Source: a virus. Taken from it: a DNA stretch of 20,480 nt. A program made the translations under genes and the position numbers. The notes beneath the pieces are model-generated. The model was not told where the DNA came from. It did no database searches and worked only from the letters and a program-made list of their open reading frames with translations. The stretch spans positions 1 through 20,480 of the IMG/VR virus record IMGVR_UViG_3300025645_003552. The stretch is one strand, 5' to 3'. Shown here piece by piece: positions 1,703-20,220 of this stretch (positions within the stretch are counted from its first letter, which is position 1; every line of letters begins with the position of its first letter).

Positions 1703-2110
1703 ATGATAAAAGTTTACATTTTAGTCGCAGTTATTGGATTGGTTGGTGGTGCAGTTTATGGTGCTTATTTTTACTATAACGACACTCAAAACCGTATTCG
1801 AATACTTACGGAAAATGCTGCACAATTAGAAATTGCAACACAGACACAAAAAAACACCATAGACACTCTTGTGCAAGATGCTGAACAAAATGCTGAACTT
1901 GCAAAAGAACTAAATACAAGACTTGAAGCTGCTAATAACTACAAAAATCAACTTATTGGTAAATTGAGAAAACATGATCTTTCTCGTTTGAGTCAACAAA
2001 AACCTCTTTTAGTTGAAGGAAAAATAAACCATGCGACAAAGAAATTGCTTACCGAATTTGAAACAATCACTGGGGCTGTTCCTGTTATTGCCGATCCTAC
2101 TGTTAAGTAG
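1703..2110 (+). CDS. Inner-membrane spanin (Rz-like)
   Basis: This 135-residue protein has one N-terminal membrane segment (about residues 3-23, rich in I, V, G and A), followed by a long polar, Gln/Asn/Glu-rich helix likely to form a periplasmic coiled coil. Its last 80 bases overlap, in another frame, a lipoprotein gene (2031-2462). This is the classic Rz/Rz1 arrangement, in which an inner-membrane spanin pairs with an outer-membrane lipoprotein spanin to fuse the two membranes at the last step of lysis. The start at 1703 follows CGGAG with good spacing and lies just after a late promoter. The assignment rests on topology and arrangement, not on sequence identity to lambda Rz. Confidence 0.75.
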   Translation: MIKVYILVAVIGLVGGAVYGAYFYYNDTQNRIRILTENAAQLEIATQTQKNTIDTLVQDAEQNAELAKELNTRLEAANNYKNQLIGKLRKHDLSRLSQQKPLLVEGKINHATKKLLTEFETITGAVPVIADPTVK

Positions 2111-2462
2111 TGGGTGTTCACTCTGGCCAAGTCTTAAAGAAATATCTGTTCAAACAGTAGAAGCAAAAAGGATTATTCCATTACAGAATAAACCTCGTCC
2201 TGTTGATATGAACAATATGCATTTCTGGATTGTTACAGAGCAAAATTTTGAAGAATTTAAGACTAAATTTACAAAAAAGAATGGTTCTTTTTTATTTTAT
2301 AGTATTAGTGTAAGAGACTATGAAAATCTTGCATTAAATATGGCTGAAATAAAAAGATACATAGAGCAACAAAAAGAAATCATAATTTATTATGAAGATG
2401 CAATAACCTTCCAACAAACTGGTAAAAAACCAGAAAAAGAACTAAAGGAGATTAAAGAATAA
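2031..2462 (+). CDS. Outer-membrane spanin lipoprotein (Rz1-like)
   Basis: This 143-residue protein starts inside the inner-spanin gene in another frame. Residues 12-28 form a lipoprotein signal peptide ending in a lipobox LSSGC, with Cys29 as the lipidation site. No Asp follows the Cys (next residues SLWPSL), consistent with outer-membrane sorting. The mature part is about 115 residues, polar and helical at its C-terminus, longer than lambda Rz1. Partner of the upstream gene in the lysis step. Its stop shares one base with the next ATG (TAATG), so the DUF1353 gene is probably translationally coupled. Alternative: an unrelated phage lipoprotein, but the overlap architecture favours a spanin. 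Confidence 0.72.
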   Translation: MRQRNCLPNLKQSLGLFLLLPILLLSSGCSLWPSLKEISVQTVEAKRIIPLQNKPRPVDMNNMHFWIVTEQNFEEFKTKFTKKNGSFLFYSISVRDYENLALNMAEIKRYIEQQKEIIIYYEDAITFQQTGKKPEKELKEIKE

Positions 2463-5169: not shown

Positions 5170-6975
5170 ATGGAATCTGCCGGAATCGCATACCTCAACT
5201 CGGAAGAAAAATATTTAAATATCAACATAGAAAGACACAAAGACAATAAAATATCAGAACAGGCAAAAAAATTATTAAAGGATTATTATCAATTAGAAGA
5301 CGAGGTATCACCACAGCAGGCATACGCAAGAGCTGCAGTTGCATATTGTTATGAAGATTATGAATTAGCACAAAGAATATATAACTATGTTAGTGATGGG
5401 TGGTTTATGTTTGCATCACCAGTATTATCTAATGCGCCACTTCCTAATGTAAAAACAAAAGCACTTCCCATTTCTTGTTTTTTAACTTATGTTCCTGATT
5501 CATTAGAGGGTCTTATTGACCATTCTGCTGAACTACGTTGGTTGTCAGTTAAAGGTGGTGGTGTCGGTGGACATTGGAGTGATGTTCGTGCGGTGTCAGA
5601 TAAGGCGCCAGGCCCAATGCCATTCATACATACAGTAGACGCTGATATGACGGCTTATCGTCAAGGTAAGACTCGTAAGGGGTCGTATGCTGCATACATG
5701 GATATATCACACCCCGACATTATTGAGTTCCTTAATATGCGTATTCCTACAGGGGATGTGAATAGAAAAAATTTAAATCTGCACCACTCAGTAAATATTA
5801 GTGATGCGTTTATGAGAGCAGTTGAAAGAGATGAGATGTGGGATTTGATTGATCCTAATGACCAGACAGTTCGTGATAGTAAAAAAGCTAGAAAAATCTG
5901 GGAGACAGTTTTAGAAACTCGTTATCGTACAGGCGAACCATATCTAAATTATATTGATACTGTTAATCGTGCGATGCCACAATCCATGAAAGACAAGGGA
6001 TTGAAAATACATGGGTCTAATTTGTGTAATGAAATACATTTGCCTACTTCTGAAGACCGCACAGCTGTATGTTGTTTGTCATCTGTCAACCTAGAGAAAT
6101 ATGACGAATGGAAAGACAGTTTTATGATTGCTGATCTTGTTCGGTTTTTAGATAATGTGCTTCAATTCTTTATTGATAATGCACCAACTGAAATAAGTCG
6201 TGCAAAGTATTCTGCTGAACAAGAGCGTTCTCTTGGTCTTGGTGCAATGGGTTGGCATTCTTATCTTCACAAACACCGCATTCCTTTTGAGTCGGACATT
6301 GCAAAAGAAAAAAATATTGAAATCTTTAGACATATAAAATCAGAAGCAATATTAGAAACAGAACAGTTAGCAACAGAACGTGGAGAGTGTCCAGACATGG
6401 AAGGAACAGGTAGGCGCAACTCACATCTACTTGCGATTGCTCCTAATGCAAACAGTTCGATTATTTGTGGAACATCACCATCTATCGAACCAAATAAAGC
6501 AAACGCATACACTCACAGAACAAGAGCTGGTTCTCATTTAGTCAAAGATAGATACCTTGAAGAAGAGTTAGAAAAGGTAGGCAGAAACGATACTAAAGCA
6601 TGGACTTCTATTATTACTAATGGTGGTTCAGTTCAACACTTAAAATATTTGTCAGATGAAGTAAAGAGTGTGTTTAAAACAGCAATTGAAATTGACCAGA
6701 ATGAAATCATATCTCAAGCTGCAAATCGGCAAGAGTTTTTGTGTCAGGGTCAATCTTTAAATGTATTTTTTGCGTCTGGTGCTAAACGTGCAGAACTTCA
6801 TGAGGTTCACTACAATGCTTGGAAACTTGGTTGTAAAGGAATGTATTATTTGAGAACAGAAACATCAAACAAAGCAGAAAACGTGTCTACACAAGTAGTT
6901 CGTGATGCACTAAAAGATTACGAAACTCAAGCAATGTCAATTAACCAAGAGGAGTGTGTCGCATGTCAGGGATAA
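5170..6975 (+). CDS. nrdA: Class I ribonucleotide reductase large subunit NrdA, short form without ATP-cone
   Basis: Catalyses reduction of ribonucleoside diphosphates to deoxyribonucleotides with NrdB. Catalytic residues are present: redox Cys103 (SCF) and Cys301 (AVCCLSS), the Asn284-x-Cys286-x-Glu288 triad in GSNLCNEI with thiyl-radical Cys286, and the radical-relay pair Tyr559-Tyr560. A C-terminal Cys596-x2-Cys599 pair would be regenerated by glutaredoxin. At 601 residues it is about 150 shorter than E. coli or T4 NrdA. The N-terminus begins close to the catalytic domain, so the ATP-cone that allows dATP shut-off is absent. GGAG lies 12 bases before the ATG, rather far. The last 13 bases overlap the glutaredoxin-NrdB gene. 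It serves phage DNA synthesis in the host cytoplasm. Confidence 0.95.
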   Translation: MESAGIAYLNSEEKYLNINIERHKDNKISEQAKKLLKDYYQLEDEVSPQQAYARAAVAYCYEDYELAQRIYNYVSDGWFMFASPVLSNAPLPNVKTKALPISCFLTYVPDSLEGLIDHSAELRWLSVKGGGVGGHWSDVRAVSDKAPGPMPFIHTVDADMTAYRQGKTRKGSYAAYMDISHPDIIEFLNMRIPTGDVNRKNLNLHHSVNISDAFMRAVERDEMWDLIDPNDQTVRDSKKARKIWETVLETRYRTGEPYLNYIDTVNRAMPQSMKDKGLKIHGSNLCNEIHLPTSEDRTAVCCLSSVNLEKYDEWKDSFMIADLVRFLDNVLQFFIDNAPTEISRAKYSAEQERSLGLGAMGWHSYLHKHRIPFESDIAKEKNIEIFRHIKSEAILETEQLATERGECPDMEGTGRRNSHLLAIAPNANSSIICGTSPSIEPNKANAYTHRTRAGSHLVKDRYLEEELEKVGRNDTKAWTSIITNGGSVQHLKYLSDEVKSVFKTAIEIDQNEIISQAANRQEFLCQGQSLNVFFASGAKRAELHEVHYNAWKLGCKGMYYLRTETSNKAENVSTQVVRDALKDYETQAMSINQEECVACQG

Positions 6976-8237
6976 GAATAGTAACAAAATCAGATTGTCC
7001 TTTTTGCTCAATGGCAAAGAATTGGCTCAAAGAACATTCCTTTGAATACACAGAAGATTTAATTAACAATGAAGAAGAACGTCTTGCGTTCTATCAAACA
7101 ATCAATGGTGCTACAGAAATTGTGGGTGAATTAAATACTCGCAGAATTAATTCTGTTCCTCAAATTTTTATTGATGATAAACGTATCGGTGGATATGATG
7201 AGTTGTTAAAGGTGGGTGATGACTTGTTAAGAAAACGCTGTGGGGGTGGACTGATGCAATTTAGTGAAACCTATAAACCATTTCATTATCCTTGGGCAGT
7301 AGAGATTACCACACGCCATGAGAAAGCACACTGGATAGAAGATGAACTTGATTTGTCTGATGATGTTTCAGATTGGAAGTCTGGTAAGGTTACAGATATT
7401 GAAAAGGAATATGTCACAAACATTCTACGTCTGTTTACACAGTCAGATGTTGCAGTCGGTCAGAACTATTTCGATCAGTTCATTCCTAAGTTTAAGAACA
7501 ATGAAATTCGTAATATGTTGGGTTCTTTTGCAGCTCGAGAAGGTATTCATCAACGTGCGTATGCATTGTTAAACGAAACACTAGGACTACCAGACAGCGA
7601 GTATCATGCGTTCTTAGAATACAAAGTGATGGTTGACAAGATTGAGTTTATGCAAGAGTCTGATAATAATAGTATGAAGGGTTTGGGTCTTGCGCTTGCA
7701 AAGTCGGTGTTCAACGAAGGCGTTGCGCTATTTGCATCATTCGTTATGTTGTTAAACTTCCAACGGTTCGGTAAGATGAAAGGTATGGGTAAAGTTGTTG
7801 AATGGTCTATTCGTGACGAGTCTATGCATGTTGAAGGAAATGCAAAGTTGTTTCGTCAATTCTGTATCGAACACCCCAAAGTAGTTGATGATGAATTTAA
7901 ACTAAGCATTTACGAGATGGCGCGAGTCGCAGTTAAGTTAGAAGATAAGTTTGTTGACCTTGCATATAAACTAGGAAATGTTGATGGTTTAGAAGCATCC
8001 GAAGTAAAATCATATATAAGGTATATAACAGATAGGCGACTATTGCAGTTAGGTCTAAAGACTAACTTTAAGGTAAAAGAAAATCCACTACCTTGGCTAG
8101 AATGGGTTTTAAATGGCGCCGACCACACTAACTTTTTTGAAAATCGTGTTACTGAATATGAGGTAGCAGGATTGTCTGGCAATTGGGATGATGCATATGA
8201 AAAAGAAAGTGAGGTGGCCGTATGCTCAATAAATTGA
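6963..8237 (+). CDS. nrdB: Glutaredoxin-NrdB fusion (ribonucleotide reductase small subunit)
   Basis: A 424-residue fusion. Residues 1-95 form a glutaredoxin: Cys12-Pro-Phe-Cys15, then NSVPQIFID with the cis-Pro and IGGYDEL. After a CGGG linker, residues 98-424 are the class I R2 subunit, with metal ligands Asp162, Glu193, His196, Glu252, Glu286 and His289, and radical Tyr200 four residues after His196 as in E. coli (H118/Y122). The chosen ATG at 6963 has AAGAGGAG ending 8 bases upstream, inside nrdA; an in-frame GTG at 6954 overlaps that site and is rejected. The fused glutaredoxin can plausibly reduce the C-terminal Cys pair of NrdA. An ATG at codon 98 could also give a stand-alone R2. T4 keeps the glutaredoxin (nrdC) as a separate gene. 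Confidence 0.93.
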   Translation: MSGIRIVTKSDCPFCSMAKNWLKEHSFEYTEDLINNEEERLAFYQTINGATEIVGELNTRRINSVPQIFIDDKRIGGYDELLKVGDDLLRKRCGGGLMQFSETYKPFHYPWAVEITTRHEKAHWIEDELDLSDDVSDWKSGKVTDIEKEYVTNILRLFTQSDVAVGQNYFDQFIPKFKNNEIRNMLGSFAAREGIHQRAYALLNETLGLPDSEYHAFLEYKVMVDKIEFMQESDNNSMKGLGLALAKSVFNEGVALFASFVMLLNFQRFGKMKGMGKVVEWSIRDESMHVEGNAKLFRQFCIEHPKVVDDEFKLSIYEMARVAVKLEDKFVDLAYKLGNVDGLEASEVKSYIRYITDRRLLQLGLKTNFKVKENPLPWLEWVLNGADHTNFFENRVTEYEVAGLSGNWDDAYEKESEVAVCSIN

Positions 8238-9400: not shown

Positions 9401-9408
9401 TATAAATA
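9401..9408 (+). promoter_or_regulatory. T4-type late promoter TATAAATA (distal copy)
   Basis: Exact TATAAATA in the 52-base gap between the methyltransferase and the curli-like operon, 27 bases upstream of a second exact copy. An ATACCTA / TAGGTAT inverted pair (9406-9412 and 9434-9440) overlaps the ends of both copies. Confidence 0.68.
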
Positions 9409-9427
9409 CCTAACCGAATAGATATCT

Positions 9428-9435
9428 TATAAATA
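9428..9435 (+). promoter_or_regulatory. T4-type late promoter TATAAATA (proximal copy)
   Basis: Second exact late-promoter octamer, placed so that transcription would begin about 10-15 bases before the first start codon of the curli-like operon. Two tandem copies imply strong late expression of the genes at 9450-15642. Confidence 0.75.
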
Positions 9436-9449
9436 GGTATATTGGAGGT

Positions 9450-9749
9450 ATGAATGTGGATGTATTTACATTAATTACTAAGGTGGGAGCGCCAGTTGCT
9501 GGAGCTTTAGTTATGGGATTCTTCATTTTTTTAGTATTAAAACAAATACTAGAAGGTATCATCGATCAAATAAGAACTCTAACTATGTTTTGTAAAATGC
9601 TTGAAGATAGAGCAAGAGTGGGTTGTAATGAGCTTATAAAGATTGATTTGTTGGTTAGTTCTGCTTTAGGAGTTACCCCAGACATCAATAGAATTGCTCG
9701 TGCTGAAAACTTCAAAGAAGATGGAAAGTTGGATGTGAGGAGAGATTAA
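9450..9749 (+). CDS. One-TM protein at head of curli-like operon
   Basis: About 99 residues. The N-terminus FTLITKVGAPVAGALVMGFFIFLVLKQ... gives one membrane helix (about residues 10-33), followed by a mixed helical cytoplasmic or periplasmic part with two cysteines (MFCKMLEDRARVGC). The pattern ITxxGxPVxxAxxMGxFI is shared with the next gene, so the two are probably paralogues. GGAGG sits one base before ATG 9450 but 7 bases before an in-frame GTG at 9456, so the real start may be the GTG. Family unknown; holin-like or scaffold roles are possible. It is the first gene after the tandem late promoters. Confidence 0.68.
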   Translation: MNVDVFTLITKVGAPVAGALVMGFFIFLVLKQILEGIIDQIRTLTMFCKMLEDRARVGCNELIKIDLLVSSALGVTPDINRIARAENFKEDGKLDVRRD

Positions 9750-10078
9750 TGGGAGATGTAGCAAAACTAATTACCGAATTTGGGTTTCCAGTTGTTATGG
9801 CTGTCGGTATGGGTTATTTTATATACTACATATGGCAGTTTATTAGTAACAACATTCAACCAGAGTTAGACGCAATGCATCTTGCTCTTATAAAATGTAT
9901 AGACCAAAATCGTATGTTAGATAATGATATGATACGACTGCAACAAAAAGTAAATGTAGTTTTAGAATATAGAGAAAAAGATAAAATGCAAGAAGAAATA
10001 CAAGAACAGGCAGAAAAAATCAGCAATGAAAAAGTATTGGCTGGAAAAAAACAAAATGAAAATAAACAGAACACTTAA
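9749..10078 (+). CDS. One-TM coiled-coil protein, paralogue of previous gene
   Basis: 109 residues: an N-terminal membrane helix (about residues 10-32, FGFPVVMAVGMGYFIYYIW), then a helical region (QPELDAMHLALIKCIDQNRMLDNDMIRLQQKVNVVLEYRE split by charged residues) and a Lys/Gln/Glu-rich coiled tail. It matches a small family I associate with marine phages; function unknown. Its ATG shares one base with the preceding stop, and its 3' end overlaps the CsgF gene, so it is translated with the secretion genes. It might be an inner-membrane partner of the pore or a holin. Confidence 0.68.
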   Translation: MGDVAKLITEFGFPVVMAVGMGYFIYYIWQFISNNIQPELDAMHLALIKCIDQNRMLDNDMIRLQQKVNVVLEYREKDKMQEEIQEQAEKISNEKVLAGKKQNENKQNT

Positions 10079-10535
10079 TTTTAAAATTAAAATAGCTATT
10101 TTATTATCGTTGTTTTTGTGTATGCATGTTGCAGAATATTCTAAAGCAAGCGACTTGGTTCATCAGTGGAAGTCACCAGCTTTTAGTGGAAATGGTTACA
10201 GTTCACACGCACTAACAATTGAAAACCAAGAACATTCTAGAAAGAAAGCGATAAGAGAAAAGAAAGAAGCTGCAGAAAGAGAAGCGTTAAGAGATGCAGC
10301 TAATACAAATCTTTCGAAGTTTATGAAAAATGTTGAATCAAGAATTTATGCACAGCTGTCAAAACAACTCGTAGACAGTATGTTCGGAGAAAATTCTGGA
10401 CAAGCAGGTACAGTCACATTTGAAGGTACAACAATCAGTTACGTCAAAGATACAGAAAACGTAACCCTAACAATAGTGGATACAAATGCAAGCGAAACCG
10501 TTATTACAGTTCCTATTGGCGACTTTACTTTTTAG
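10056..10535 (+). CDS. csgF: Curli assembly factor CsgF homologue
   Basis: About 159 residues from ATG 10056. An in-frame ATG at 10026 would add ten polar residues before the signal peptide and lies deeper in the previous gene. The signal peptide (KIAILLSLFLCMHVAEYSKA) probably ends at KA|SD. The mature N-terminus SDLVHQWKSPAFSGNG resembles the CsgF segment F-x-NPxFGGNP that plugs into the CsgG barrel. A Lys/Glu/Ala helix follows, then MKNVESRIYAQLSKQLVD, matching the ESRLxSQL helix of CsgF, and a C-terminal beta part (GTTISYVKD, NVTLTIVDT). In bacteria CsgF sits on the outer face of the CsgG pore and couples secretion to nucleation. It directly precedes and overlaps csgG by 50 bases. Confidence 0.85.
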   Translation: MKINRTLNFKIKIAILLSLFLCMHVAEYSKASDLVHQWKSPAFSGNGYSSHALTIENQEHSRKKAIREKKEAAEREALRDAANTNLSKFMKNVESRIYAQLSKQLVDSMFGENSGQAGTVTFEGTTISYVKDTENVTLTIVDTNASETVITVPIGDFTF

Positions 10536-11268
10536 TCTAGGTGGTTGTGCTACGACAGAATTCTTAGAAGCACCAACATCTACATCAGTCCCGATGGTGA
10601 ACAAATTAGAAAATTTTCCACCTCCTGAGAGGAAGGTTGACATAGCCGTGTATAAATTTGTCGATCAAACGGGGCAAAGGAAACCTATTGACACTGGTGC
10701 TTCATTCAGTATGGCTGTAACACAAGGAGCAGCAACGTGGTTAGTACAAGCACTTAAATCTGCTGGAAAGGGAGAGTGGTTTACAGTTGTTGAAAGAATG
10801 CAATTAGACCAACTGTTAAAAGAACGGCAGATTATAAGAAATACAAGAACCACTTATGATGGTGAAAATGCAAAAAAAGTTAGGCCTTTAACTTTTGCTG
10901 GTGTTTTCGTAGCTGGTGGAATTGTTGGTTATGATTCTAATATAGAAACTGGAGGTGCTGGTGCAAGATATTTGGGAGTAGGCCCACAAGTTGAATACCG
11001 TAGAGATATGGTGTCGGTTGGTCTACGATTAATATCTGTTCAAACAGGTGAAGTTTTACTTGCAGTAAGCTCCGAAAAAACTATATTAAGTGCTAAAGTT
11101 GGCGTAAGTCTTTTCACATTTTTAGACATGGGTACTAAATTGTTAGAAGTTGAAGCTGGCGTTACTGAGAATGAGTCTACATCTTATGCAGTTCGTAAAG
11201 CAATCGAACATTGTGTAAGTCAGATAATTGAGGAAGGGATAGAAAAAGAACTATGGAAATTTAAATAA
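10486..11268 (+). CDS. csgG: Outer-membrane curli secretion pore CsgG homologue
   Basis: 260-residue lipoprotein. The lipobox LGGC has Cys21 as the lipid anchor. The body matches CsgG along its length: DIAVYKFVDQTGQRKP, AVTQGA, a LxERQIIRxTR-like stretch (LLKERQIIRNTR), GGIVGYDSN, GGAGARYLGVG, LRLISVQTGEVL, SEKTIL, and the C-terminal AIEHCVSQIIEEGIEKELW. CsgG forms a nonameric outer-membrane channel that exports unfolded curlin. The constriction loop that carries Tyr51, Asn55 and Phe56 in mature E. coli CsgG is here IDTGASF (residues 68-74), one residue longer, with only the Phe clearly kept. Length is close to E. coli CsgG. It starts 50 bases inside csgF. Confidence 0.95.
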   Translation: MQAKPLLQFLLATLLFSLGGCATTEFLEAPTSTSVPMVNKLENFPPPERKVDIAVYKFVDQTGQRKPIDTGASFSMAVTQGAATWLVQALKSAGKGEWFTVVERMQLDQLLKERQIIRNTRTTYDGENAKKVRPLTFAGVFVAGGIVGYDSNIETGGAGARYLGVGPQVEYRRDMVSVGLRLISVQTGEVLLAVSSEKTILSAKVGVSLFTFLDMGTKLLEVEAGVTENESTSYAVRKAIEHCVSQIIEEGIEKELWKFK

Positions 11269-11280
11269 GGAGACAACTAA

Positions 11281-11985
11281 ATGAAAACGATTATATCTAG
11301 CATACTTGTATTAATTGCTCTCGTTTATTTTGTTATGTGGGGAGTGGGAGAAAGTTATGCAAGCGATGTATACATTACACAGTCAGGCGCAAGTCTTACT
11401 GCAAATGTTAATCAAGACGGACAGACCAATAAGTTTGGTGATTCAACTACGGCAGTTACTTTAACAGGTGACAATCAGACTTTGGATATTGACCAAATTG
11501 GTAATACAAATACCATTGCAGCTTCTGTTGTGGGTGCGACACAAACATTCACACTTAAACAAGAAGGTAGCAGTAATACATCTACTGTATCGGTTGGTGC
11601 TAACTCTGCGTCAGCTGACAATAGTATTATTGAAACGATCACAGGTAGTTCAAACACAACTACTGTCAACGTAGGTAACTCAGCTGCATCTGATGATGCA
11701 GATATTGATTTGACTGCAACTGGTGATAGCAATACTATAACCATTAATGAAAACAGTACTGCATCACTAACTGGTAGTGATAAAAAGGTAACAAACATTA
11801 CTGCAATCGGTTCTAGCAATACTATTACATCAACACATACTGGTGCAGCTGACCAAGATACAACTCTACATCATACAGGAGCATCTAGCACATTTGCGAT
11901 TACTCAAGGTGGTGCGTATGACGGCACAACCTCTATGACAACAGTGGGGTCTGGTCATAATGTTACGGTTACTATGGACGATTAG
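11281..11985 (+). CDS. Secreted curlin-like beta-repeat protein 1
   Basis: 234 residues. A signal peptide (residues 1-27, ending SYA|SD) is followed by about eight imperfect repeats of 22-28 residues with a Q-x-G-x-x-N or G-S/D-x-N-T-x-T core: ITQSGASLT, VNQDGQTN, IDQIGNTNTI, LKQEGSSNT, ITGSSNTTTV, ATGDSNTITI, AIGSSNTIT, TVGSGHNVTV. This follows the curlin repeat (S-x5-Q-x-G-x-x-N-x-A-x-Q) loosely, with some Gln replaced by Thr. Very rich in Thr, Ser, Asn, Asp and Gly, and free of Cys in the mature part. Immediately downstream of csgG with an AAGGAG site. Probably the main fibre-forming substrate of the phage pore. Whether it forms amyloid is unknown. Confidence 0.8.
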   Translation: MKTIISSILVLIALVYFVMWGVGESYASDVYITQSGASLTANVNQDGQTNKFGDSTTAVTLTGDNQTLDIDQIGNTNTIAASVVGATQTFTLKQEGSSNTSTVSVGANSASADNSIIETITGSSNTTTVNVGNSAASDDADIDLTATGDSNTITINENSTASLTGSDKKVTNITAIGSSNTITSTHTGAADQDTTLHHTGASSTFAITQGGAYDGTTSMTTVGSGHNVTVTMDD

Positions 11986-13033
11986 TTTTACACTTTTGAT
12001 GCTGATGAGCAATATTGCTCTGTCAGACACTATTGGTAATGTAGTAAAACAAAAAGGAAATGCCTCAGTTGAGAGAGCAAAGAATAAACTTTCTTTGAAA
12101 AAAGACTTTGGTATTGAATTTAAAGATAATGTCCGTACAGGAAATGGTGACGTTGGCATAAAATTTGTAGATAATACAAATGTGGCAATAAGCCCGCACA
12201 GTTCATTGGTAATAGATGACTTTGTGTACGACCCAAATAATAAGGGTGGGTCTAAACTTGTACTGAATGTCGCATTGGGAACAGTTCGATATGCAAGTGG
12301 TAACATTGCAAAACTGAATGCTCAAAATGTTGATATTCGTACTCCAACAGCACGAATAGGTGTTCTTGGAACTGCGTTCAGTATGACCGTTGATGAAGTC
12401 GGAAAGTCTTTGATTATTCTGCTTCCCAATGCAGACGGAACAGTGGGTAAAATTTCAGTAGAGAGTGAAGCTGGTCAAGTTATGCTCAATCAAGCATTTC
12501 AATCTACACTGGTTACAAATGGTGAAAGTATGCCAACTAAACCAGTTGTACTTGATTTATCTTTAGACCAGATTAATAATCTATTAATAATCAAACCACC
12601 AAAAGAAAAACTTATAGAAATAGTTAGAAACATTAATAGTTCAAATAACTTGTTAGATGTAGATTTCTTAGAGTATAAAGTGTTAGATGAAAATGAACTT
12701 GATGAAGACGAATTAGAATTTACTGAATTGGATATTAATCCTTTAGATGTAGATTTGTTGATGAATGTATTAGACCAATTGATTGCACTGACCGCACAGT
12801 CAGAAATGATAGATGGTAGAACAAGTGGGTTCAACAAAGCAACTCAAGTCAATACGCTTCGTGATGGTTCACGCTTAGAAATAATTAGACATGTTGGAAG
12901 TAGTGAGGTACATTTAAGACTAAACGCTGATTGGGGTTATGTAATTAATTTGACGCAAGGTGGAATACCTGTGCCGGAGATAACGACAGATGACGAAACT
13001 ACTAATAATATTGTTATCTATCAGTCTGAGTAG
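11960..13033 (+). CDS. Periplasmic FecR-domain protein
   Basis: 357 residues, starting 26 bases inside curlin 1. A signal peptide (about residues 1-22, ending IALS|DT) is followed by a FecR domain (about residues 55-150): DNVRTGNGDVGIKFVDNTNVAISP, LNVALGTVRYASG, VDIRTPTARIGVLGTAFSM. This beta-sandwich is known from sigma-factor signalling and from periplasmic proteins next to CHASE2 cyclases. Here there is no cytoplasmic anti-sigma helix or membrane helix, so it is a soluble periplasmic form. A second part has an acidic, Leu/Asp/Glu-rich region (about 231-270) and a short C-terminal beta domain. I infer it acts as a periplasmic sensor or adaptor between curlin export and the downstream cyclase. 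Confidence 0.82.
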   Translation: MLRLLWTISFTLLMLMSNIALSDTIGNVVKQKGNASVERAKNKLSLKKDFGIEFKDNVRTGNGDVGIKFVDNTNVAISPHSSLVIDDFVYDPNNKGGSKLVLNVALGTVRYASGNIAKLNAQNVDIRTPTARIGVLGTAFSMTVDEVGKSLIILLPNADGTVGKISVESEAGQVMLNQAFQSTLVTNGESMPTKPVVLDLSLDQINNLLIIKPPKEKLIEIVRNINSSNNLLDVDFLEYKVLDENELDEDELEFTELDINPLDVDLLMNVLDQLIALTAQSEMIDGRTSGFNKATQVNTLRDGSRLEIIRHVGSSEVHLRLNADWGYVINLTQGGIPVPEITTDDETTNNIVIYQSE

Positions 13034-13784
13034 TATTGCATACGCTGACAACAGTGTATTCATAGAACAAATTACTACTAGTGACGATACAACGATAACT
13101 ATTAATCAAGACGGCAATGACAATGCTGTCAACTTGTCTATGGCTCATGATGATAATACACTTGATTTTCATCAAGAGGGAAACAATAATACAATTAGTT
13201 GGGTTTCTTATTGGGGTTCTGGTAAATCTTGGGGCGGCGATTTAGATGGTTCTGATAATACATTACGATTTAAACAGTATAATACAACTGGTTCAGATTC
13301 AAACAGAATAGGATTTCATATACCTAGCAATGGTAATACTGTTGATGTATGTCAAGGAGCTTCTTTTGCCAGCAGTACATCTACGTCTTGTTCTGGAACT
13401 AGTTCTCAAGAATATGGTGGACATACCACTAATCTAGATTTACATTCTGGTGGTAACACGATTAAAATAGGACAACAAACAGGTACAGGAAATGCAGATC
13501 ATTATGTCCAACTATATACATATGGCGGTGAAAATAACGATATTTTTGTAAAACAAAATGGTAACGGAAATAAAACATTAAATATGACTGTGCGAACTGA
13601 TGGTGGCGAACAATCTATAATTCAGAAAGATAGTGGAGCTCATACTGCGACAATAGATTTAACAGGAAGTTATCACACAGATTTAGATTTAAAACAACAG
13701 GGTAGCACTAATCAATCGTATAGTTTAACACAAAATTGTCAAACGTCTGGCGGTTGTGGAGTAACACTAACACAAGGAAATTAG
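12990..13784 (+). CDS. Secreted curlin-like beta-repeat protein 2 (with Cys pairs)
   Basis: 264 residues, beginning 44 bases inside the FecR gene. A signal peptide of 19 residues ends AYA|DN. The repeats are looser than in curlin 1 but keep INQDGNDNAV, FHQEGNNNTI, VKQNGNGNKT, LKQQGSTNQS and LTLTQG-like ends. Two cysteine pairs, Cys121/Cys134 and Cys250/Cys256, may form disulfides, which is unusual for curlins. It is larger and more varied than curlin 1, so it may be the nucleator or cap (CsgB-like) or a functional head. The assignment as minor subunit is inference from its position and divergence. It stops one base before the cyclase gene. Confidence 0.75.
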   Translation: MTKLLIILLSISLSSIAYADNSVFIEQITTSDDTTITINQDGNDNAVNLSMAHDDNTLDFHQEGNNNTISWVSYWGSGKSWGGDLDGSDNTLRFKQYNTTGSDSNRIGFHIPSNGNTVDVCQGASFASSTSTSCSGTSSQEYGGHTTNLDLHSGGNTIKIGQQTGTGNADHYVQLYTYGGENNDIFVKQNGNGNKTLNMTVRTDGGEQSIIQKDSGAHTATIDLTGSYHTDLDLKQQGSTNQSYSLTQNCQTSGGCGVTLTQGN

Positions 13785-13785
13785 T

Positions 13786-15642
13786 ATGAAAAAATGGATT
13801 ATCTCTATCTTGGTTATTATTATATTTTGTGGTATACGTTTTGTAGACCCTTGGTTTCTGGACATGGTGCGAATGAAAGCACTAGACCAACATCAAAGAA
13901 CACAACAAGAAGAAATCTCAGATAAAATTGTAACAGTAGAAATAGATAATGAATCTATAAGAGAACGTGGTCAATGGCCATGGCCTAGAAATGAATTAGC
14001 AAAAGATATTGAAGAGTTGTATCGTATGGGAGCTGCAATTGTTGTAGTGCCTATACTGTTTGCAGATGCAGATAGAATGGGTGGTGATCAACAATTTGAT
14101 GAAATGTTGAAGAAGACTCCCACCATCATAGGTCAAATACCAGCAAACGAAACTAAAGGCAATCCTATTTCCAGAGGAGTAGCAACAATAGGTACGCCAT
14201 GGCAACCTTGGGTGTATAACTATACAGGTGCGGTTGGGCCAATAGAACCTTTTGCAAAATCAGCAATAGGTGTTGGTATGATGTTAGTTGCACCAGAGGG
14301 TGATGGTGTAGTTCGTAGAATGCCTTTAGTAGTTCAGATAGACGGACAACTATACCCATCATTATCTATGGAGATATTAAGAGTAGCTGCTGGTGATCTC
14401 AGTTACCAGATGAAAACTGGTGAGGGTGGTATCGAAGCACTACGCATACCAAAATACAAAAAGGTACTGACTGATGCGAATGGTGCAGTCTGGATTGATT
14501 TCAAATGGAAAACAAAAACCTATGCACTAAACAAATTGTATATAAACGAATTATTTGAAGAATTAAATTTCAACGGAAAGATTGTTATACTTTCACCAAC
14601 TGCGTCTGGTATTGATAATCCAGTTGCAACACCAGTTGGAGTTATTCAAAGTCATGATTTGATAGCTGCATCTATAACAACTATGATGACAGGAAGAAAC
14701 ATCACAAGGCCATTCTGGTCTGACTTAGCAGAGCTGTCAGTTACCCTAGTAACATCATTGGTACTAACTGCCGTGGTGTTAACACTAAGTTGGTATTTCG
14801 GTGCAATACTTCTACCTTTGTTCCTTGCAGGGTCTTACTATGGTAGTTCATACCTATTTACCGAATATAGTTATTTAATAGATTGGTCATACCCTGTTCT
14901 GACTATGTTTGTGGTTTGGTCGGTTGCAGCTTTCCTACGGTTCATGGAAGAATTTAGATTGCGTCAACAGATTAAGAAACAGTTTGAGCATTACCTTGAC
15001 CCAAGACAGGTTGCGGTTTTACAGAAAAATCCAGAGGCATTAAAACTTGGTGGTGAACGTAGAGAGATGAGCTTTCTCTTTATGGACATTGTTGGGTTCA
15101 CTCCTATATCAGAACACTACAAAAACAATGATGACCCAGAGGGGTTAGTTGACTGTATCAATGATTACCTAGATCGTATGACTAAGATAGTCTTGAATAA
15201 TGGTGGAACGGTAGACAAGTATATGGGTGATTGTATTATGGCATTTTGGAACGCACCACTGGATTGTGAGAACCATGCAGAAATGGCAGTTCGTACCTCT
15301 ATGGAGTGTGCGGTGGAGACTGAGAACCTAAAGGCTGCATGGAAGGAGAAAGGACTACCAGAGATTAATATCGGTAGTGGAGTCAATACAGGAACGTGTA
15401 TTGTGGGTAATATGGGTAGTAGCACCAGATTTGACTATTCGGTTATCGGTGATGCAGTCAATCTGGCTGCAAGATTAGAGGCATCTACTCGTAACTATAA
15501 GACTCGCGGTGGCGGTATTGTCAATACGATTTACTCATCATATACCCAAGAACAGCTACCAGATGACCTAAAAGGTGTCGAATTGGACAAAATTAAGGTC
15601 AAAGGTAAGGATGAATTGATAACTATTTTCAAACCTCGTTAG
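13786..15642 (+). CDS. CHASE2-domain class III adenylate cyclase
   Basis: 618 residues. One N-terminal membrane helix (about 4-20), a periplasmic CHASE2 sensor (about 21-310; VTVEIDNESIRERGQWPWPR, FADADRMGGDQQFD), three further helices (about 318-390), then a cytoplasmic class III cyclase (about 425-615). Catalytic residues are complete: metal Asp434 (FMDIVGF) and Asp482 (KYMGD), base-selecting Lys478 with Ser552 where Asp or Thr is usual, and transition-state Asn559 and Arg563 (NLAARLE). Lys478 points to ATP, so the product is probably cAMP. In bacteria, CHASE2 cyclases sit beside FecR genes, as here. A membrane cyclase with an outside-facing sensor is unexpected in a lytic-type phage. It is the last gene of the late operon. 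Confidence 0.93.
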   Translation: MKKWIISILVIIIFCGIRFVDPWFLDMVRMKALDQHQRTQQEEISDKIVTVEIDNESIRERGQWPWPRNELAKDIEELYRMGAAIVVVPILFADADRMGGDQQFDEMLKKTPTIIGQIPANETKGNPISRGVATIGTPWQPWVYNYTGAVGPIEPFAKSAIGVGMMLVAPEGDGVVRRMPLVVQIDGQLYPSLSMEILRVAAGDLSYQMKTGEGGIEALRIPKYKKVLTDANGAVWIDFKWKTKTYALNKLYINELFEELNFNGKIVILSPTASGIDNPVATPVGVIQSHDLIAASITTMMTGRNITRPFWSDLAELSVTLVTSLVLTAVVLTLSWYFGAILLPLFLAGSYYGSSYLFTEYSYLIDWSYPVLTMFVVWSVAAFLRFMEEFRLRQQIKKQFEHYLDPRQVAVLQKNPEALKLGGERREMSFLFMDIVGFTPISEHYKNNDDPEGLVDCINDYLDRMTKIVLNNGGTVDKYMGDCIMAFWNAPLDCENHAEMAVRTSMECAVETENLKAAWKEKGLPEINIGSGVNTGTCIVGNMGSSTRFDYSVIGDAVNLAARLEASTRNYKTRGGGIVNTIYSSYTQEQLPDDLKGVELDKIKVKGKDELITIFKPR

Positions 15643-19701: not shown

Positions 19702-20220
19702 ATGAATGGAATTGAACAGCTAGTGGTCGGCACAATGTTTGGTGTTGTTGGTGCAGTTGCTCAACCTTTACCAGAAGATGTAAAGTCTAAATCGGTAGAA
19801 TGTCTTGCACTCAACATGTATCACGAAGCAAGGGGTCAGGGTACTGCTGGGGAACTTGCGGTGACTACTGTTGTAATGAACAGAGTTAATGACTCAAGGT
19901 TTCCTAATACTATATGTGGAGTGGTAAAACAAGGCCCGACTCGACCATCATGGAAAGACCCTAAAATTTCATTTCCCATTAAACATAAATGTCAATTTAG
20001 TTGGTATTGTGATGGTAAAAGTGATAAACCAAGAAATAAAAAAACTTATGCGAAAATGTTAGATTTTGCAGATGCAATATTAAGCAATAAGTTGTTGTAC
20101 TTAGATATTACTGATGGTGCTACGCACTATCACGCCGATTATGTCAATCCTTCTTGGGCAAAAACAAAAACAAAAACTGTAGAAATACAAGATCATATTT
20201 TTTATCGTTGGGAAAAATAA
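19702..20220 (+). CDS. SleB-like cell-wall hydrolase (probable endolysin)
   Basis: 172 residues of the Hydrolase_2 (SleB/CwlJ) family, which cleaves peptidoglycan as a lytic transglycosylase or muramidase-type enzyme. Key stretches are ALNMYHEARGQG with catalytic-type Glu42, AVTTVVMNRVNDSRFPNTICGVV, CQFSWYCDGK, and THYHADYVNPSWAKT. The N-terminus (VVGTMFGVVGAVAQ) is a weak signal or signal-anchor helix, so it may reach the periplasm by a signal-arrest-release route. It acts with the spanins at 1703-2462, although about 17 kb away, so the lysis genes are split. Confidence 0.85.
   Translation: MNGIEQLVVGTMFGVVGAVAQPLPEDVKSKSVECLALNMYHEARGQGTAGELAVTTVVMNRVNDSRFPNTICGVVKQGPTRPSWKDPKISFPIKHKCQFSWYCDGKSDKPRNKKTYAKMLDFADAILSNKLLYLDITDGATHYHADYVNPSWAKTKTKTVEIQDHIFYRWEK

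Follow-up and report, generated by a model that had tools for sequence, protein, structure and literature searches.

Why does a marine phage of the T4 type carry genes for curli secretion together with a FecR-domain protein and a membrane adenylate cyclase? The question is raised by the IMG/VR virus record IMGVR_UViG_3300025645_003552, of which positions 1 to 20,480 were analysed as one stretch of 20,480 nucleotides (hereafter the window). Eight co-directional open reading frames (ORFs) on the plus strand, at 9450-15642, encode two small transmembrane proteins (TM1 and TM2), CsgF, CsgG, curlin-like protein 1, FecR, curlin-like protein 2, and a CHASE2 adenylate cyclase (Table 1). We tentatively propose, with a little less than even confidence, that this module would be a late curli-like export system, in which FecR would anchor or nucleate fibres at CsgG and the CHASE2 cyclase would read that state.

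The eight-gene module and its conservation

The system belongs to a kind that has been published. Zaragoza-Solas et al. (2020) described csgF and csgG and an operon in pelagimyophages (PMC7029224), and Wittmers et al. (2022) reported the order HK(s)-CsgF-CsgG-CsgA/B-FecR-CsgA/B-AC, with histidine kinase (HK) and adenylate cyclase (AC) genes at its ends, in Pelagibacter podo- and myophages (PMC9599517). From the small gene(s) through the adenylate cyclase, the window shares its gene order with this pelagiphage type VIII secretion module (PMC9599517, PMC7029224, HTVC008M). The first-pass annotation of the window had considered the full module as still awaiting description, which is not borne out; the eight-gene order that it suggested seeking in other phage genomes is found in HTVC008M, in the Methylophilales phage Melnitz (MZ577097), and in related viral loci. 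The paper on Melnitz states that csgA and csgB are lacking (PMC9004378), contrary to the Melnitz record itself, which annotates two curlin-repeat proteins, plus FecR and the cyclase (L042, 7815-10609). To the published system, the present analysis adds the anatomy of FecR, the occurrence in bacteria, the constant presence of the TM pair, and the lack of an evident receptor for cyclic AMP (cAMP).

The components that characterise type VIII (curli) secretion, namely a CsgG pore lipoprotein, CsgF, and curlin-repeat subunits, are all present in the window. The alignment of the CsgG protein to E. coli CsgG covers the full length (residues 9-258), and its lipobox cysteine is invariant among relatives. 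The sequence of CsgF had no match in PDB. Pfam matches to CsgF, CsgG, FecR, CHASE2, and the class III cyclase were all above the curated cut-offs. The Pfam curlin repeat stayed below cut-off in both curlin-like proteins of the window (0.007 and 0.011), and 22/30 orthologues of curlin-like protein 1 matched it, the best with 6e-8. Q-x-G-x2-N motifs average 2.2 and 2.0 per curlin-like protein, compared to 0.08 and 0.24 in shuffled sequences. The AlphaFold2 model of curlin-like protein 1 is a regular beta-solenoid (predicted local distance difference test, pLDDT, 85.6; predicted template modelling score, pTM, 0.80).

Conservation was assessed in 117 viral loci, HTVC008M, Melnitz, and seven probable phage contigs in metagenome-assembled genomes (MAGs), collected by CsgG similarity. 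The viral loci are among the matches listed (more than 586 relatives exist) and include near-copies, and gene presence was counted only in loci with a contig long enough for the gene concerned. CsgF lies upstream of CsgG in 112/112 loci, a curlin follows CsgG in 109/109, FecR is present in 95/95, and the cyclase is found within 8 kb in 65/65. Thus FecR and the cyclase, published as frequent, are universal in the loci sampled here. Both TM1 and TM2 were found in all 37 loci with room on both sides, usually upstream of the module on the same strand; in 13 loci they have stayed with the module as an inverted pair 3′ of the cyclase. Separated or decayed genes, which the first-pass annotation named as evidence against a single system, were found in none of the sufficiently long contigs listed. 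The ratio of nonsynonymous to synonymous substitution (dN/dS) was 0.08-0.23 for all eight genes in the four relatives compared, which indicates purifying selection. A Salmonella phage record of 1,499 bases also encodes CsgG, but is probably host DNA.

Pfam gave no kinase family for the TM1 and TM2 of the window, and the families listed for 34 members include none either. Both were considered as histidine kinases or known holins, and this was rejected as no Pfam family of either kind is among those listed. Since TM1 and TM2 have only 99 and 109 amino acids and no kinase family listed, the published histidine-kinase label does not appear to fit them, if they are the same genes as the HK of that paper. 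The small genes without a histidine-kinase domain, and a FecR whose C-terminus is a curlin kernel, distinguish the system from the pelagiphage module as published. Compared to the bacterial curli operon (CsgABCDEFG), CsgG, CsgF, and curlin-type subunits are in common, whereas the phage module lacks CsgE, CsgC, and CsgD, and has FecR and the CHASE2 cyclase in addition. Two related loci (L021 and L027) possess extra genes between curlin 2 and the cyclase, several of them with signal peptides, which are possible further cargo of the pore.

Regarding expression, the octamer TATAAATA occurs three times in the window compared to 2.1 expected by chance, so the plain count was rejected as evidence of a promoter, and only position and conservation are informative. 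Directly upstream of the first gene of the module, the octamer is present in 35 of the 91 distinct upstream regions (28/66 regions with TM1 first, and 7/25 with csgF first), far above the 0.011 expected per region. The late-promoter reading of the first-pass annotation holds because of this position among relatives, and late expression of the module is likely on these sequence grounds. Wittmers et al. found metatranscriptome evidence of module expression (PMC9599517). The third octamer of the window, at 1677, lies just 5′ of the first gene (1703) of an Rz-like spanin pair encoded by overlapping genes.

The same type of late promoter before the spanin gene and before the module would suit a role in lysis. 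For Melnitz, it was proposed that the CsgG/CsgF pore has been taken over to time lysis, in the manner of a pinholin or secretin (PMC9004378). However, the window encodes lysis genes of its own, the spanin pair and a SleB-type endolysin, though no holin was identified, and the curlins, FecR, and cyclase are under purifying selection, although a bare pore would not need them. We therefore regard lysis timing as very improbable. Outer-membrane weakening before lysis, one of the purposes considered in the first-pass annotation, is likewise less needed, because the window supplies the spanin pair and the endolysin.

Table 1. Coordinates of the module, of other features of the window, and of related loci (positions refer to the window unless a locus is named)
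Feature	Position	Strand	Evidence or remark
Tandem T4-type late promoter octamers TATAAATA	9401..9435 (9401-9408, 9428-9435)	+	conserved position upstream of first gene
TM1, 99 amino acids, one N-terminal TM helix, conserved C-terminal GK-x-D-x-R-[RK]-D	9450..9749	+	phrog_18771 8e-21; alignment A5
TM2, 109 amino acids, TM1 paralogue, one N-terminal TM helix, conserved DRIRMLDNDLIRL	9749..10078	+	phrog_18771 8e-26
CsgF, signal peptide, conserved N-terminal segment	10056..10535 (ORF opens 10026)	+	Pfam CsgF 1e-21
CsgG outer-membrane pore lipoprotein, lipobox LGGC	10486..11268	+	Pfam 8e-56; E. coli CsgG 1.7e-49
Curlin-like protein 1, 234 amino acids, predicted beta-solenoid	11281..11985	+	curlin repeats; AlphaFold2
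FecR-domain protein, C-terminus in curlin kernel NNIVIYQSE	11960..13033	+	Pfam FecR 1.5e-7; structure model
Curlin-like protein 2, 264 amino acids, five Q-x-G-x2-N repeats	12990..13784	+	repeat motif
CHASE2 membrane class III adenylate cyclase	13786..15642	+	Pfam CHASE2 4.9e-40, class III cyclase 2.1e-16
Rz-like spanin pair	1703-2459		overlapping genes
NrdB with N-terminal glutaredoxin/thioredoxin-like domain	6954-8237		single ORF, GTG start
SleB-type endolysin	19702-20217		
Inverted TM1/TM2 pair 3′ of cyclase	L020, L032, L039, L040, L140, L141, L145, L154, L160, L161, L168, L174, L181		
Extra genes between curlin 2 and cyclase	L021:13327-15766; L027:13851-15857		several with signal peptides
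Phage-type bacterial curli operons without TM1/TM2	L053:9471-15491 (705 kb contig); L045:9525-15542; L046:8310-14364		

The coordinates, overlaps, gene families, and the two upstream octamer sites given in the first-pass annotation were all confirmed by the ORFs, Pfam, and the octamer positions, as was its description of a T4-like phage with curli export genes, FecR, and a CHASE2 cyclase in one co-directional, conserved unit. The overlaps are 50 bases between csgF and csgG (10486-10535), 26 bases between curlin 1 and FecR (11960-11985), and 44 bases between FecR and curlin 2 (12990-13033). The true start of csgF is probably the internal ATG at 10056 and not 10026, as relatives start at the matching ATG. 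The window also possesses a T4-type primase, nrdA, nrdB, a T4-type exonuclease, and a tail-fibre protein. The best relatives of the primase are those of the OM43 phage Melnitz (55%), and the pelagiphages Mosig (50%) and HTVC008M (49%). Mosig (EXVC030M) gave no csgG match in the search of phages. The NrdB protein is fused in a single ORF to an N-terminal glutaredoxin/thioredoxin-like domain.

FecR anatomy and the curlin kernel

The structure model of FecR (mean pLDDT 78) predicts a signal-peptide helix, a FecR domain at residues 26-197, a disordered stretch at 209-283, and a C-terminal beta domain at 290-357. In Foldseek, the FecR domain matches PupR (6ovk, 4.8e-5) and other anti-sigma FecR domains (expect value, E, about 5e-5). 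A further match is to the domain by which an RTX adhesin is anchored to the cell surface (5ix9), with 35% identity over 62 columns and a profile E of 1.6e-4. The periplasmic FecR fold is thus in common with the FecR/PupR anti-sigma factors of cell-surface signalling, whereas the phage protein has no cytoplasmic anti-sigma region, as the signal peptide is followed by the FecR domain, and carries an extra linker and a C-terminal beta domain.

The C-terminus of FecR contains a motif of the same form as the curlin amyloid kernel N-$-h-$-h-$-Q published by Sleutel et al. (PMC10192328). The strict form N-x-[IV]-x-[IVYF]-x-Q is present in the last 14 residues of 65 of the 89 distinct FecRs and nowhere else in those proteins, compared to 0.085 in whole-protein shuffles and 0.65 in tail shuffles. 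It was found in 0/29 control FecR-family loci, which were chosen by position; for a few of these, the frame taken may differ from the real one of FecR. The broader h-x-h-x-Q is located at the tail of 86/92 FecRs, and 70/92 have another some 22 residues before it; alignment A8 shows no variation in either Q column. Between the motifs of the curlins themselves, spacings of 11 and of 22-27 are both found. A position-specific scoring matrix for Q-x-G-x2-N gave a mean above shuffles on FecR and missed the tail of the window protein, because this tail stops right after the Q; the kernel motif was used instead.

These results suggest that FecR is itself a physical component of the apparatus that makes the fibre. 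The first-pass annotation had listed FecR as a signalling protein, which is incomplete: the FecR fold is there, but the cytoplasmic anti-sigma part is not, the fold also resembles an adhesin anchor, and the protein ends in a curlin kernel. Wittmers et al. treat FecR and the cyclase as ordinary regulators (PMC9599517), and on that published reading the genes would be a complete curli system for fibres only, serving sibling capture or superinfection shielding, with no role of FecR in the fibre. The resemblance to the anti-sigma signalling domain of PupR agrees with it. On the other hand, FecR has no cytoplasmic anti-sigma region, no sigma-factor or TonB-receptor gene was recognised beside it (the module genes belong to other families in Pfam), and its C-terminus carries the curlin kernel. 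We consider this explanation unlikely, while giving it appreciable weight. Among the papers listed by one search on FecR in curli nucleation, none mentions FecR.

In the arrangement that we propose, CsgG with CsgF would form the outer-membrane pore that exports the two curlin-like beta-solenoid proteins. FecR would be a structural partner and not a regulator of a sigma factor, with its FecR domain kept in the periplasm, and the disordered linker, some 75 residues long, could pass through the CsgG pore, so that the C-terminal domain with the kernel might dock onto, nucleate, or cap the fibre. In the inner membrane, the CHASE2 part of the cyclase may sense the state of FecR or of the fibre and set cAMP accordingly, and TM1 and TM2 would be obligate small partners in the same membrane.

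The CHASE2 cyclase and the question of cAMP

The metal, base, and transition-state residues of the catalytic domain (D434, D482, K478, D550, N559, and R563) are all present in the cyclase of the window. The 85 homologues compared all keep the two metal aspartates, the lysine, and the arginine, and the D550/N559 pair is S/S in 35, including L021, L027, L042, L047, L125, L127, L130, and L132. Close CHASE2 relatives of the window protein are among the carriers of this S/S subtype, suggesting that the catalytic domain was swapped between cyclases.

The cyclic nucleotide-binding domain PF00027 was found in 5/118 genomes of the family of a Pelagibacter MAG, MAGs being incomplete, in 0/17 module-bearing phage records, most of which are fragments, and in 10/14 control genomes. 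If the host of the window phage belongs to this family, cAMP made by the phage would thus have no obvious reader in most such hosts, although effectors without this domain are possible. The link of the module to cAMP drawn in the first-pass annotation is accordingly uncertain: the intact catalytic residues agree with it, and the lack of PF00027 in most of these genomes and in all module phages sampled does not.

A connection between FecR and CHASE2 proteins is found beyond phages. In Alphaproteobacteria, a search that made no use of curli found some CHASE2 cyclases whose genes are divergent to those of FecR-domain proteins. Two of these partners are cadherin/RTX-type adhesins (L266/L211 and L268/L228), and one is a short FecR protein (L267/L216). 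Other CHASE2 cyclases lie, as judged by eye, next to type I secretion-like or substrate-like genes (L207, L209, L225, and L229). In the BiofilmReg operon of Burkholderia, a FecR-domain protein is encoded together with a CHASE2 histidine kinase (PMC5192318), and CHASE2 cyclases of S. meliloti respond via the outer-membrane protein NsrA (PMC13001267). We infer from these pairings that FecR and CHASE2 may be repeatedly combined for envelope sensing in connection with surface structures. Similar to the RTX ice-adhesin anchoring domain (5ix9), FecR-domain adhesins carry the FecR-like domain towards the N-terminus of an exported protein, and in some Alphaproteobacteria they are paired with a CHASE2 cyclase, as FecR is in the phage module. 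The RTX-type system has one giant adhesin, probably type I secreted, whereas the phage module has separate curlin subunits that would pass through CsgG.

Several results weigh against the export and sensing arrangement. The fold search of PDB with the model of curlin-like protein 1 gave nothing significant (best E 0.04). The FecR kernel is a short motif, the Pfam family Curlin_rpt matched 0/45 FecR rows, the hhalign match between the profiles of the FecR C-terminus and of curlin 1 was weak (probability 5%), and the FecR of the Hyphomonas copy of the module has no C-terminal kernel. The S/S subtype of the cyclase, and the missing evident cAMP receptor in most sampled Pelagibacter-family genomes, are further such points, as is the report that Melnitz-infected cultures did not clump (PMC9004378). 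CsgE is not among the eight module genes by Pfam, the rest of the genome not having been scanned for it; it is also absent from the alphaproteobacterial curli layout (PMC9599517).

A module without the CsgE gate would fit an open CsgG pore through which nutrients or cofactors enter the infected cell, as proposed in the literature (PMC7029224, PMC9599517). This would leave two conserved curlin-like proteins, CsgF, the FecR kernel, and the cyclase unexplained, and we consider it quite improbable. Under the proposed fibre export with FecR as anchor, the fibres on infected cells would probably serve to keep neighbouring hosts nearby or to fend off competing phages, uses between which the data do not distinguish.

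Bacterial copies and the direction of transfer

The order csgF-csgG-curlin(s)-fecR-CHASE2 cyclase is present in three Caulobacterales genomes, Hyphomonas sp. TMED17 (L053) and two Caulobacteraceae MAGs (L045 and L046). The contigs look bacterial, and the flanks scanned encode a TonB receptor, FAA hydrolase, 2-oxoglutarate oxygenase, phosphoesterase, and amidohydrolase. These copies show that such genes do occur in bacterial curli operons, contrary to what has been published. Hits in Bacteroidota, Planctomycetota, Rhodobacteraceae, and Pelagibacter MAGs (L043, L044, L047, L049, L050, L052, and L072) were rejected as bacterial and are probably binned phage contigs, because the contigs are short, and TM1/TM2 are present in L043, L044, L047, L049, and L072. 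Full-length FecR was found in 1/385 genomes of Alphaproteobacteria, 1/398 of the order, 2/249 of the family, and 1/398 of the phylum, counts that include the query genomes themselves.

In the CsgG and CHASE2 trees, the bacterial modules are placed inside the viral diversity, on long branches. A single viral clade was rejected for CsgG by the approximately unbiased (AU) test (p 0.0007), and the FecR tree gave the same placement with less support. From this nesting, transfer of the module from phages to Caulobacterales is the simplest reading, to be taken with caution given the long branches. The bacterial modules may instead be the donors, appearing nested because the true donor clade is unsampled, and phages would then have acquired the module more than once. 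Bacterial sampling is thin, with three genomes found, and phages generally acquire such genes from their hosts; but the CsgG and CHASE2 trees and the AU test contradict this origin, FecR weakly agrees with them, and the module is rare in bacteria. Bacterial donorship is somewhat doubtful, with a substantial share of the probability left to it.

In the widest form of the proposal, FecR would be a periplasm-held, pore-threading anchor and nucleator of fibres with a curlin kernel tip, read by the CHASE2 cyclase, that is, a secretion-coupled second-messenger sensor recurrent in bacterial adhesin systems, packaged by phages, and later passed to Caulobacterales. We put this forward as speculative and rather unlikely as a whole.

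Phages of very abundant ocean bacteria thus carry a putative fibre-export system of a kind that is reportedly missing from Pelagibacter itself. With so few cAMP receptors in the likely hosts, the purpose of the cyclase becomes a sharp question. If FecR physically links the fibre and the cyclase, this would give a concrete mechanism for the puzzling pairing of curli, FecR, and cyclase genes, and the bacterial modules nested among those of phages suggest that a whole surface-fibre system was a gift from phage to bacterium.

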